Shown here one piece after another: positions 106 to 43,004 of a stretch of DNA of 57,201 nt. This DNA is from Lactiplantibacillus pingfangensis (GTDB lineage: Bacteria; Bacillota; Bacilli; Lactobacillales; Lactobacillaceae): contig NZ_BJDG01000023.1 in the NCBI RefSeq assembly GCF_005404945.1, forward strand, positions 1 to 57,201. Reading direction: 5' to 3'. The notes beneath the pieces are model-generated. The model was given only the letters and a program-made list of their open reading frames with translations. It did not search any database and was not told the DNA's origin. Within the stretch, counting starts at the first letter, position 1; each line of letters starts with the position of its first letter. Made by a program: the position numbers and the translations under genes.

Positions 106-433
106 CTAAAGATAAAAATCGTTAGCAACTACCGCCATTTCCAATGATTAGGGCTTGAAGATTAGTGACATGGGCGCTTCCAGTCGCCACTGATAACATG
201 CGGCCGTGGGACCGGTCCAAGCCTGAGAAACGTCCCGGTCCGTCCGTGGCGTAACGCCGACAAGAAACATACTGACCCAACGCCACGGTCACGACCGATG
301 GGATCAGCGGCGACGGACAGCTAATTTAACTGTTTTTAGATTAGGTCTGCCGGAGCGGGATCGCGACTAATTTGGAAGTGGCTGTTGACTATATGACAGT
401 GTTTACGAGCCCTTTTGTCCTTTCAACCTTTTG
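106..433. mobile_element. MITE-like structured repeat, copy 1 (degenerate)
   Basis: No gene lies in 1-540; most of it is this repeat. It aligns over most of its length with the copies at 34258-34789 and 42580-43004. The left end begins CTAAAG (106-111) but lacks about 11 nt of the terminal repeat; the right end is TTCAACCTTTTG (422-433). The flanking 8-mers TTGTTTAA and TCGGTTAA agree at 6 of 8 bases, as an old target duplication might. The core fold is visible: helix 183-194/303-314, helix 201-208/290-297 and helix 246-252/280-286. An internal arm of about 40 nt present in the other copies is missing. Bases 1-105 hold nothing I can name. Confidence 0.6.
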
Positions 434-1089: not shown

Positions 1090-1562
1090 GTTTGAAATCC
1101 TCCAAAGAATAAAATTTAGGCGTGACTTTGAGCCACTATTAATTAAATACGCATTGCTTTTGGGTTTCATTTTTAATTTTCAAAAATAATCCGACTGAAT
1201 TGGTCAAGCGCGGATTCGGCAAGTGTCGAAATTCTCCTAGTCGGAAAAGCTGGTCGACAAATAAGCTTCTTCATCCCTGCTTGAGTTATCGCGTATCAAA
1301 TAGAGATAAGCGGTCGGTTGTGGCAAAATTTAGGAAATCTCAAAGAAAATCCAAATGGCTAATAACTTTAGTACAGCATAAGTTGGCGTTTGTTCGGGAG
1401 TTAAATATCTCATTCGCCTAGCAATCACAGGCAGGTGTTCAAGTGCTATGAATGGTCTATTGGGTTGACTTACCCTTAAATTCTGATTAGTTCAGTGAGA
1501 AGGCAACTGATCAGGGCTTTGAGCTGAATGGCAATTAAAACAGTGTACATTTTTAGCCGTGA
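1090..1562. other. Gap without recognisable gene
   Basis: Contains the ribosome site of the lipoprotein gene (GGAGG on the minus strand near 1097-1101) and otherwise no ORF with a credible start. A 73-codon frame at 1200-1421 has no ribosome site and an unconvincing composition. The cloverleaf-like element and the tRNA promoter follow. Confidence 0.5.
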
Positions 1563-1701
1563 GGGGGCTTCGTTTGGGGCTCAGCCGTGGCATTTGACTT
1601 AGCGCGGATGGTTTTATCCGCGGTTAGTCAAAAACCAGCTTTTGAGACCGCCTTTTGGCTCAAAAATGGTTCATGGCGTTCCAGCCCCAAACGAAGCCCC
1701 C
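1563..1701. repeat. Cloverleaf-like palindromic element, 139 bp
   Basis: Outer arms 1563-1581 (GGGGGCTTCGTTTGGGGCT) and 1683-1701 are perfect 19-bp inverted repeats. Between them sit two further hairpins: 1594-1609/1616-1631 (14 of 16 paired, TTGACTTAGCGCGGAT side) and 1640-1646/1659-1665 (7 bp perfect). No clear target duplication flanks it and it codes for nothing. It may be a MITE, a REP-like palindrome or a structured RNA. Confidence 0.65.
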
Positions 1702-1782
1702 GGTAGGCGGAAATTAATCCACTTGATAATGAATTTAGAGAAAATCGAGTAAAACTTAATACAGACACGGCTTAAATAAGAA

Positions 1783-33571: not shown

Positions 33572-34218
33572 TGACGACGGTGAATTTGTTAGTCGGGGGA
33601 CCGACGGCGAATTGGCCGACTGACCTGGCACAACTTTCTGGGCCGTGGGTCGGCGCCGATCGTGGGGCGCTGCGCTTGGTCAAGTTAGGCATTCAGCCAG
33701 TGATGGTTGTTGGTGATTTTGATTCAATCAGTCCGGCAGAATTACAGACGGTTAAGCAAGCAATTGCCGGTGCGGTGATTGTTAAGCCAGACCAAGATCA
33801 CACTGATACGCAACTGGCCGTCAAATCCATTTTTGAACAGTTGCATCCTGATGAGCTGCATATTTATGGGGCAACGGGTGGTCGACTCGATCATTTATTG
33901 GCTAATCTTTGGCTAGTGCTTGACCCGTTCTTCCGTGATTGGGCGCCTAAGATTACCTTGATTGATCGCCAGAACACGATTCGATATTTTTTGCCGGGGA
34001 GTTACACGATCACTAAGGAAGCCACGAAAAAGTATTTGGCGTTTGTGCCACTAATGCCGATGAAGTTAACGTTAGCGGATGAAAAATATCCGTTGACGGC
34101 AGCTCAAAATGACTACCCAATTTCGTGGGCTAGCAATGAATTTGTTGGTGAGCAGGGCCACTTTAGTTTTGATACTGGGGTATTGGCAGTTATTCAGAGT
34201 TGTGATGCAACTGTTTAA
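33571..34218 (+). CDS. thiN: Thiamine pyrophosphokinase
   Basis: 215 aa. Transfers pyrophosphate from ATP to thiamine. Motifs VGADRGALRLVKLG, VVGDFDSIS, PDQDHTDTQLA and YGATGGRLDHLLAN cover the nucleotide and Mg sites; C-terminal thiamine-binding beta sandwich with ISWASNEFVG. End of the operon; no ordinary terminator follows, only the repeat element 39 bp on. Confidence 0.94.
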   Translation: MTTVNLLVGGPTANWPTDLAQLSGPWVGADRGALRLVKLGIQPVMVVGDFDSISPAELQTVKQAIAGAVIVKPDQDHTDTQLAVKSIFEQLHPDELHIYGATGGRLDHLLANLWLVLDPFFRDWAPKITLIDRQNTIRYFLPGSYTITKEATKKYLAFVPLMPMKLTLADEKYPLTAAQNDYPISWASNEFVGEQGHFSFDTGVLAVIQSCDATV

Positions 34219-34257
34219 GTCGCGTCATTGGCTTGAAGATGCGTTATTTTTATGAAG

Positions 34258-34789
34258 CTAAAGGTTGAAGGATCAAAATCCCTAATCATTGCCGCCATGT
34301 CAATGATTAGTTGCCATGACCGTTTCCAGTCGCCGCTGATCACATGCGGCCGTGGGACCGGGTCAAGCCTGAGAAACGTCTTGGCCCTCGCCCGGAACCC
34401 TTGCGCAAATCGCAAGTGTCCCGGACCGTCCGTGGCGTAACGTCGGCAAAAAACATGCCGGCCCAACGCCATTGTCACGGCCGATAGGATCAGCGGCGAC
34501 TTCCGGCTAATTTAGCTGTTTTTAGGTTAGGTTTAGCGGAAGCAGGCAGAAATCGTTGTGCTGTGTCGGTAAGATTGGCCGGCGGGTCTTGGCCGCCTAA
34601 TCTTACAGGGCGATTTAAAGACGTGGGTTATCGGCTTTAAATCGAAGTTGCAGACCGTACTATGGCTGCGACTGTCCCACCACAGCACAGCGATTTCTGC
34701 CTGCTGAAGCGGAATCAACACTAATTTGGAAGTGTCTGTTGCCTGTATGACAGTGTTTACAAGCCCTTTTTTGCTCTTTCAACCTTTAG
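34258..34789. mobile_element. MITE-like structured repeat, copy 2, with target duplication
   Basis: Terminal inverted repeats: CTAAAGGTTGAA (34258-34269) against TTCAACCTTTAG (34778-34789), 12 bp perfect and about 19/21 when extended inward. The 8-mer TTATGAAG flanks both ends exactly (34250-34257 and 34790-34797), a target-site duplication. No ORF. Core fold: 14-bp perfect helix 34328-34341/34488-34501; helix 34347-34354/34476-34483; helix 34360-34367/34380-34387; hairpin 34400-34405/34411-34416; helix 34433-34438/34466-34471 enclosing 34444-34447/34457-34460. A hairpin CTAATCATTG/CAATGATTAG precedes the core. A second element is inserted at 34541-34705. Confidence 0.85.
34541..34705. mobile_element. 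Nested cloverleaf palindromic element inside repeat copy 2
   Basis: Outer arms 34541-34565 and 34681-34705 pair over 25 bp with one T-G. Three inner hairpins: 34569-34576/34599-34606 (GTAAGATT arm), 34611-34620/34635-34644 (CGATTTAAAG, perfect) and 34647-34653/34666-34672 (one T-G). The corresponding place in copy 1 has no insert, and AGCGGAA occurs at both borders (34535-34541, 34708-34714), compatible with insertion. Both mismatches are G-U pairs in plus-strand RNA. Confidence 0.75.
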
Positions 34790-34807
34790 TTATGAAGTTA
34801 AAACAGT

Positions 34808-34849
34808 AAGAGCGTCTACCTGAAGTTGACGATTCAGGTAGACGCTCTT
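34808..34849. terminator. Long perfect-stem terminator
   Basis: Perfect 17-bp stem AAGAGCGTCTACCTGAA / TTCAGGTAGACGCTCTT; lies beyond the stop of the minus-strand lipoprotein gene. Confidence 0.85.
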
Positions 34850-34867
34850 TTGTGACGGTTATGAAGC

Positions 34868-41884: not shown

Positions 41885-42583
41885 ATGATAACTGAATTAG
41901 CTGCAATGTTGCAGGAACGTTTTGGGATTACCTTCAAGAATCCAGATTTACTGGCCGAAGCGTTTACCCAAGCATCATATGTTAACGAACACCAAGATCA
42001 AAAGTTGAAGTATTACGAACGAGTCGAATTTTTGGGGGATGCCGTCTTAGAATTAGCGGTTTCTGAGTATTTATACAAGCGTTATAAAGACATGCCCCAA
42101 GGCAAGTTGACTCGCCTGCGAGCGGCAATGGTTTGTGAAGATAGTTTTGCCAGCTTCGCGCGTGAGTGTGACTTTCCGAAATATATCCGTTTAGGTAAAG
42201 GCGAACAGAAGGCTAAAGCTTGGGAACGTGATTCGTTACTCTGTGACATCTTCGAATCATTTGTTGGTGCTTTGTACTTAGATCAAGGTCGCGAACCGGT
42301 CTTGGCATTCGTGCATCAAGTTATTTTTCCTAAATTGGACGAAGGTCGCTTTGATGGTGTTTTTGACTACAAAACGACGTTACAAGAATATTTGCAGCAA
42401 GCTGGCGATGTTGAAATCGACTATCAATTAGTTGAACAAGACGGTCCTGCCAATGAACGGTCTTATGAAATCGCTGTTTCTGCGAATGGCCGTCAAATTG
42501 GTGAAGGTCGTGGCCACTCTAAAAAAGAGGCTGAACAAAGCGCGGCCCGCCAAGCTTATACGAAATTACAGGAAAGTAAGTAA
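41885..42583 (+). CDS. rnc: Ribonuclease III
   Basis: 232 aa from ATG 41885 (GAAAGGA 8 nt upstream). Nuclease signature RVEFLGDAVLELAVS (about 46-60) with acidic metal ligands, second acidic site CDIFESFVGALYLD, and C-terminal dsRNA-binding domain (about 158-230, GRGHSKKEAEQSAARQAY). Cleaves structured rRNA precursors and mRNA duplexes. The stop codon coincides with the left end of repeat copy 3; no separate terminator is seen. Confidence 0.96.
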   Translation: MITELAAMLQERFGITFKNPDLLAEAFTQASYVNEHQDQKLKYYERVEFLGDAVLELAVSEYLYKRYKDMPQGKLTRLRAAMVCEDSFASFARECDFPKYIRLGKGEQKAKAWERDSLLCDIFESFVGALYLDQGREPVLAFVHQVIFPKLDEGRFDGVFDYKTTLQEYLQQAGDVEIDYQLVEQDGPANERSYEIAVSANGRQIGEGRGHSKKEAEQSAARQAYTKLQESK

Positions 42584-43004
42584 AGGGTGAAAGACGAAAT
42601 TTGCTAATAAAAGCAGTCGTATCCGCGGTACATTGGTGGTGAAAAGTGTCGCTTCCGGCCGTCACTGATGGCATGCGGACGAGGGACCAGACCAAGCCTG
42701 AGGGGCGGTCTTGGTCTTCGCCCGGAATGGTTGCAAAAACCGCAACTATCCCGGACCGTCCATCCCGTAAAACCGGCAAAAGCCGCCGCTCTAACGGGAC
42801 ATTCACGCCCGATGCCATCAGCGACGCCCTCCAGCTAAGGATAAAGGTATTAAAAATCATTTATCCAGTGAGCAATACTTTGAACTTTCTCGGATGGTTT
42901 GATTGACCGTATGTGATTAACAGTTGATTTATCAGCCCTTTAAAATTTTTAACATCAGTGACAGCCGGAAGCGGGAGTTCTCGCTAGCACTTCTCAACCT
43001 TTAG
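42580..43004. mobile_element. MITE-like structured repeat, copy 3 (diverged)
   Basis: Fills the 522-bp gap between rnc and smc, with no gene. Left end GTAAAGGGTGAA (42580-42591) resembles the family terminal repeat, right end is TCAACCTTTAG (42994-43004). No target duplication remains. Core helices recur with compensating changes: 42660-42674/42812-42826, 42689-42696/42710-42717 (8 bp perfect), hairpin 42730-42734/42742-42746, helix TCCCGT/ACGGGA 42763-42768/42794-42799 enclosing CGGC/GCCG 42774-42777/42782-42785. Shared unpaired blocks include CAAGCCTGAG and CCCGGACCGTCC. The 101 bases from 43005 to smc hold only its ribosome site. Confidence 0.75.

Follow-up and report, generated by a model that had tools for sequence, protein, structure and literature searches.

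The window analysed here, a stretch of 57,201 nucleotides from Lactiplantibacillus pingfangensis (contig NZ_BJDG01000023.1), contains an element downstream of thiN, at positions 34258-34789, that is delimited by exact terminal repeats, CTAAAGGTTGAA (34258-34269) and TTCAACCTTTAG (34778-34789), as seen by inspection of the sequence. The arms of these repeats extend to 21 nt with 90% complementarity, and directly beside both ends of the element lies an exact 8-bp duplication, TTATGAAG, with a score of 8/8. Among the listed open reading frames of at least 30 aa, no gene lies within the element; the longest overlapping frame, of 87 aa, exits it. The first-pass annotation of this DNA had described an ORF-free element with exact terminal repeats and exact 8-bp flanks, and both descriptions were borne out. 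The plus strand of the element folds with −259.5 kcal/mol (z = −13.4), a value equalled by none of 100 shuffles, and the other strand folds with z = −11.4. The inner part of the element consists of two modules of about 190 nt each, module A on the plus strand and module B on the minus strand (Table 1). Module B is edged by direct repeats of the heptamer AGCGGAA, which are possibly the scar of a gain or of a loss of this module; either event could use them. To the right of the element, at 34808-34849, a perfect 17-nt palindrome is followed by a short T run. This palindrome is probably the terminator of thiN, now parted from thiN by the element.

Table 1. Features of the element downstream of thiN and of its relatives within the window.
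Feature	Position	Strand	Evidence
Left target duplication copy TTATGAAG	34250..34257	.	sequence; 8/8
Left terminal inverted repeat CTAAAGGTTGAAGGATCAAAA	34258..34278	+	inverted repeat I2, 21 nt, 90%; bases 1-12 agree with IS4 ends of sister species
Module A (closing stem and inner hairpins)	34318..34509	+	module model R1, 197.6 bits (this copy is one of the 30 sequences in the model), model positions 1-191; covariation
Closing stem of module A, 5' arm (partner 34488-34501)	34328..34341	+	inverted repeat I4, 14 nt, 100%
Module B, opposite-strand homologue of module A	34534..34714	-	R1, 74.8 bits, E = 2e-20, full length
Direct repeat AGCGGAA edging module B (other copy 34708-34714)	34535..34541	+	sequence
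Right terminal inverted repeat	34769..34789	-	inverted repeat I2
Right target duplication copy TTATGAAG	34790..34797	.	sequence
Relative with module A only (172-323, shortened)	106..433	+	R1, 99 bits
Diverged solo module near a tRNA gene (1825-1898)	1554..1712	-	R1, 50.1 bits, E = 3e-13
Relative carrying module A alone (42647-42837); both ends, no duplication	42581..43003	+	R1, 194.9 bits; terminal repeat pair with 1 and 2 mismatches; duplication 3/8

Two relatives that had already been reported from the window, at 106-433 and 42580-43004, are both real, as the module model matches their modules end to end; the copy at 106-433 failed the end filter of the duplication test. The solo module at 1554-1712 is a fourth one, absent from the earlier list. 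In the complete assembly of 2.9 Mb in 59 contigs, BLAST returned 73 pieces of the element (40 of 152 candidates scored), and the module model matched all 123 candidates that were scored, which is a lower bound because the first look had raised 996 module candidates. Judged by BLAST coverage, some of the copies contain modules A and B, some A only and some B only. Among 41 end-bounded elements shorter than 700 bp in the loci examined, convergent module pairs occur in 17 and single modules in 20, and 4 are without a module. In the loci of this genome, 18 of the 48 terminal repeat pairs score 7/8 or higher for the duplication (shuffled mean 0.77, maximum 5), and 11 of the 48 reach 8/8 (shuffled mean 0.26, maximum 4), where the control permuted the right flanks among the pairs. 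The frame of the 8-bp duplication shifts by one base at either end. A good duplication is absent in 30 of the 48 pairs, and some of the pairs without duplication are old or chance pairings. In loci from other genomes, 7/8 is reached by 8 of 46 end pairs (shuffled mean 0.24, maximum 3); the window element itself is counted once in this set (L156). One MITE of 334 bp from genome G001 (L226:1896-2229) has perfect ends and an 8/8 duplication; by eye, its modules A and B look fused into a single chimeric module.

The ends of the element lead to a partner. Insertion sequences of the IS4 family in sister species end in the same CTAAAGGTTGAAAG as the element, and two of them have 8-bp duplications. 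Three such sequences of approximately 1.56 kb (L079, L080 and L081) combine these ends with an open IS4-family transposase frame and represent autonomous elements with the same ends. The 440-aa protein of L079 matches NF049925 (NCBIfam, IS4 family) with 435.9 bits against a cut-off of 250, and L079 is flanked by GACTTTAT on both sides. L081 is flanked by GATAGGAG on both sides, and in L080 the ends are present with a poor duplication (5/8). The first-pass annotation had suggested searching for an insertion sequence with matching ends and 8-bp duplications, and the IS4 family in the genus fits this description (L079, L081). In the genome of the window itself, an end-motif search yielded a pair 1.46 kb apart around an IS4-family transposase. 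The coding sequence of this one detected IS4 copy (G000:C2:121196-122655) is split between two frames, and its duplication of 4/8 amounts to none; on these two grounds it was rejected as the active driver. An active transposase was thus not seen in this genome, where the sole detected IS4 copy looks broken. Transposase homologues are found in 7 of the 21 Lactiplantibacillus genomes, including the one studied here, and plasmids of several lactobacilli bear relatives of the IS4 transposase. Carriage of the element itself by plasmids or phages was rejected for lack of blastn matches: the window element gave 0 matches to plasmids and 0 to phages, and a module copy from L. brevis gave 0 to plasmids. 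With terminal repeats at copy boundaries (48 pairs), a fixed 8-bp duplication and no transposase gene, the MITE layer is of an ordinary kind with a good partner insertion sequence. Its terminal repeats and 8-bp duplication make the element a non-autonomous, MITE-like unit, which an IS4-family transposase with matching ends on its own insertion sequences most likely moves in trans.

Modules lie 3' of thiN (window 34218-34867) in 6 of the 21 genomes of the genus (G000, G002, G009, G010, G012 and G020), in different places and in different orientations. In 13 of the 21 genomes this region has no module at E ≤ 0.01, in G006 there is one weak match, and in G003, where the matched piece stops short of the region, it could not be judged. 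The differing positions suggest repeated insertion and speak against simple inheritance of one site. A base-exact empty site was not found among the 21 genomes, of which the nearest is only 82% identical over rpe-thiN, with intergenic DNA that is not alignable by eye. In the close species pair G012/G020, with syntenic blocks mostly 91-97% identical, several module copies of one species are absent or altered in the other. A clean insertion in this pair was rejected, as the best case looks like the loss of a module with an end remnant kept and the other cases are messy. Orthologous copies common to close species do exist in some places and would agree with an element that is ancestral, inherited and immobile as a whole, its duplication having arisen by chance. 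We consider this very improbable, because the frequency of duplications is far above that of shuffled pairings, which contradicts chance, and because the modules downstream of thiN differ in position and orientation. Furthermore, of 139 modules, 94 have their nearest neighbour within their own species, where 26 would be expected (maximum 43; 139 rows after removal of short rows and of loci without a species label), which indicates that amplification is lineage-specific.

The folded modules form the second part of the finding. Thirty A modules from 10 Lactiplantibacillus genomes align with 48 consensus pairs, 39 of which show two-sided, compensatory changes. The covariation score is 0.421 compared with 0.148 for shuffled data, none of 500 shuffles being as high, and it falls to at most 0.098 when the partners are slid. 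The covariance model built from A modules matches module B of the window over its full length on the minus strand, which makes A and B inverted homologues, a relation that the first-pass annotation had missed. Conservation of at least 90% is found in 27 of 76 unpaired core columns and in 44 of 96 paired columns, so that unpaired columns are no more conserved than paired ones; the conserved unpaired columns include TCG, CAC and AA stretches as well as single loop bases. G-U pairs are no commoner than A-C mismatches (82 versus 139 in 96 rows, and 35 versus 45 in a second count), a result that lends no support to a folded sense RNA. Rfam has no match inside the element, neither at the gathering score nor at E ≤ 5. 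A known RNA family was rejected, the weak Rfam matches falling in the neighbouring terminator palindrome, and the Lactobacillaceae module lacks an Rfam family. In loci L042, L043, L055 and L056 of genomes G016 and G013, which were unmatched in the model scan, a hairpin of the module B type (TTTAAGACGTGGGTTATCGGCTTAAA) is shared, and L042 gives a 34-bit match elsewhere (76 sources given). These hairpins possibly constitute a further branch of the module family.

Template-switch repair is known for quasi-palindromes. The modules could accordingly be passive, with a covariation that stems from repair between the hairpin arms, in which template switching keeps palindromes perfect, and not from selection on the fold. 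The lack of a G-U excess over A-C mismatches is what would be expected without selection on a sense RNA. However, more than a third of the unpaired core columns (the 27 of 76) stay at least 90% conserved while 39 of the 48 pairs change on both sides, and arm repair alone would not preserve loop and junction bases. This argument loses weight in that paired columns reach such conservation no less often; passive modules seem unlikely to us on balance.

The module is present in 16 of the 21 Lactiplantibacillus genomes, with more than 100 matches in 7 of them; G005 and G009, like the genome of the window, gave 123 matches from 123 scored candidates each, and five of the 21 have 0 modules at E ≤ 0.001. 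Under strict filters it was found in 65 of 301 genomes of the family and in 10 of 40 genera, the own genus included. In the scan of the order, 19 of 395 genomes matched, 17 of them in the family. All these counts are lower bounds, as 8 candidates per genome were scored in the family scan and 6 in the order scan. Outside the family, G571 and G363 have a single weak match each, with 39.5 and 26.9 bits; these matches are not high-copy and are unproven. In G245, 149 of 150 scored candidates matched. A pattern scan of named genomes returned at least 120 stretches, and the 80 listed come from Lactiplantibacillus, Levilactobacillus, Secundilactobacillus and uncultured Lactobacillus records; one of our locus samples comprises 74 of these 80 loci together with L383 and L384. 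Convergent A-B pairs occur in several of the 10 genera with modules (56 loci).

Three genomes of the genus g25 contain many copies in which the similarity is mostly bounded by the module edges. These copies span query positions 153-154 to approximately 624, or to approximately 345-350 for A alone, and a few extend up to 26 bases further. In 30 loci of g25, no IS4 ends and no visible duplication were found. With the same query, two other genomes gave one short match and no match, respectively. The first inner hairpin of three g25 copies (L132, L137 and L138) seems to have a small extra hairpin in place of its loop. Among the loci examined, a non-systematic sample where other genera are concerned, only those from the genus of the window showed the IS4 shell with duplications. 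Because the module occurs in 10 of 40 genera and the g25 copies have no IS4 ends, the fold would either have existed before the MITE, which then took it up, or have received the MITE ends. The first-pass annotation had proposed a MITE family of Lactiplantibacillus that is mobilised in trans and carries an elaborate fold of its own. Of this proposal, the MITE-like nature and the matching IS4 in the genus stand; the idea that the fold belongs to this MITE family, or to Lactiplantibacillus, in particular is not supported, given the same module in the other genera and its g25 copies. The paired folded module is the actual find here, with a well supported structure and a wide distribution in the family.

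Copies that are bounded by module edges without visible duplications, and a folded strand with conserved loop bases, would also fit modules that are themselves mobile by a single-strand mechanism, with an HUH transposase of the REP/RAYT or IS200/IS605 type. However, 0 matches to Y1 transposases were obtained in G001, G004, G007, G010, G012 and G020, genomes with 37 to 121 modules each, and Y1 matches do occur in module-poor or module-free genomes, e.g. G019 and G008. A HUH/Y1 transposase as driver was rejected due to this lack of association: Y1 is unmatched in 8 of the 21 genomes, of which only G011 and G015 are also module-free. The orientation relative to replication likewise speaks against such a mechanism. 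Among the matches listed (150 of 320, namely 18 of 38 in G001, 50 of 133 in G214 and 82 of 149 in G245), with GC skew sampled in G001 and G214 only, 13 of 18 modules in G001 oppose the leading strand and 26 of 50 in G214 follow it; a replication-strand bias was rejected as inconsistent between the two genomes. Self-mobility of this type is therefore improbable in our assessment.

The arrangement of the modules and their position relative to genes are regular. Of 105 two-module clusters in all samples pooled, 101 converge, 4 are in tandem and 0 diverge. Sites between convergent genes are over-represented among the elements, and sites between divergent genes under-represented: in sample A4, convergent-gene sites account for 29 of 86 elements against 32 of 198 in the background and divergent sites for 13 of 86 against 56 of 198, and in sample A2+A3 the corresponding values are 31 of 104 against 6 of 70 and 9 of 104 against 10 of 70. 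The median distances to gene 3' ends are 96 and 101 nt, those to 5' ends 267 and 226 nt. Solo modules between genes of the same direction lie in gene sense in a ratio of 39:15 in the pooled count (p = 0.0015, with clusters taken as independent). Per sample, the ratios are 20:5 (p = 0.004) and 20:10 (p = 0.099); after removal of shared modules the second becomes 19:10 (p = 0.14), and the bias there is weak. These counts exclude identical clusters (in the pooled count, clusters with an identical module in common) and any match that overlaps a better one, and the context counts cover clusters with called genes on both sides. Genes were taken as plain ORFs of at least 100 aa, and single cases may be wrong. 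The samples hold related species, so that counts are not fully independent and p-values are optimistic. The A4 alignment comprises 150 of 153 matches, 4 of 109 A4 clusters share modules with A2+A3, and some genomes are in both samples. In a crude scan without shuffle control, a terminator-like hairpin lies between the gene and the element in 127 cases out of 238, so that about half of the elements may be outside of the mRNA.

This context raises the question of whether the modules act as an RNA with a regulatory or 3'-end role, such as a stabiliser, a processing site or an attenuator, that spread through usefulness, the MITE being just the carrier. Their nearness to gene 3' ends, their rarity in divergent regions and the gene-sense orientation of most solo modules are in line with this, and REPs occupy a similar context according to the available part of PMC3733652. 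However, a G-U excess is missing, about half of the elements lie past a terminator-like hairpin in the crude scan, copies differ between close species, and five of the 21 genomes of the genus do without the module at the threshold given above. We therefore rate a regulatory or 3'-end RNA as rather unlikely.

We are fairly confident that two layers are combined at this locus: an IS4-type MITE shell around a convergent pair of homologous folded modules, which belong to a high-copy family element that is found elsewhere without these ends. In the outer layer, an IS4-family transposase would cut or copy the element in trans via the matching ends. The modules may be cargo captured by the MITE. By analogy, they may behave in the manner of REP/BIME repeats, on a much larger scale: structured sequences between genes that are tolerated or useful at gene 3' ends and that might be read either in the form of folded RNA or in that of folded single-stranded DNA. 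As the likeliest working guess, which we put forward tentatively, a protein could read the conserved loop and junction bases of the folded strand, and with the pair facing inward, transcription from the left and from the right would each meet a module in sense. It is conceivable, though we are far from certain, that the modules represent a new class of large folded mobile modules of the Lactobacillaceae, built of homologous units of about 190 nt that nearly always face each other, each with a closing stem, inner hairpins and conserved loop bases, and with tens to well over 100 copies per genome in several genera. Such a class would spread on its own without duplications, and its capture by an IS4-type MITE would have taken place in a single lineage.

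Strong covariation, up to 149 matches in a single genome, a distribution over ten genera and the lack of an Rfam family together make this non-coding unit of about 190 nt unusual. The inner sequence of MITEs is generally thought to be irrelevant to transposition. A fold that is kept during multiplication and divergence implies that a protein reads the folded strand, that the fold acts on neighbouring genes, or that the arms are repaired. The hosts of the module are easily grown, and all three readings of the maintenance of the fold are thus testable. An abundant unannotated repeat also has consequences for genome assembly, for the prediction of sRNAs and for the annotation of genes in these bacteria.

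In the literature on lactobacilli and on analogous elements, subscription papers lying outside the search, no description of the element was found. In its main text, as far as it was available, a survey on families of stem-loops names only Lactobacillus johnsonii in the genus Lactobacillus (PMC2267715), and the available text of a review on MITEs contains no word starting with "lactobacill" and no IS4 (PMC10969869). Compared with known systems, the modules share with REP/BIME sequences that neighbouring units are inverted and that the units are intergenic, lie mostly between convergent or same-direction genes and are found downstream of genes, as far as the available part of PMC3733652 describes them. 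Inverted pairs avoid divergent regions here as well, with 101 of 105 clusters convergent and only 13 of 86 and 9 of 104 elements at divergent sites. However, REPs have 20-40 bp according to the same partial source (PMC3733652), whereas the modules have about 190 nt with inner hairpins instead of a palindrome of 20-40 bp, and in the 21 genomes of the genus they are without association to a Y1 (RAYT) transposase. The small REP palindrome bears a GTAG or CGTC tag. BOX elements of Streptococcus pneumoniae are similar in being modular composites with terminal repeats, duplications, a strong fold and an optional module, and differ in that boxB forms tandem arrays between boxA and boxC while modules A and B are inverted homologues, as judged from part of the source (PMC3049150). 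In addition, the modules of about 190 nt span many genera; they are set apart from BOX by description, not by sequence. The bcr1 repeats of the Bacillus cereus group are likewise high-copy, structured, intergenic repeats in a Gram-positive group, and they differ from the Lactobacillaceae modules in size and host group, a contrast that is drawn by description only. The closest correspondence of the outer layer is with IS4-mobilised MITEs, which have terminal inverted repeats matching those of an insertion sequence, 8-bp duplications, no genes and many copies. Unlike these, the element described here bears two large conserved folded modules that are also found without MITE ends in g25.
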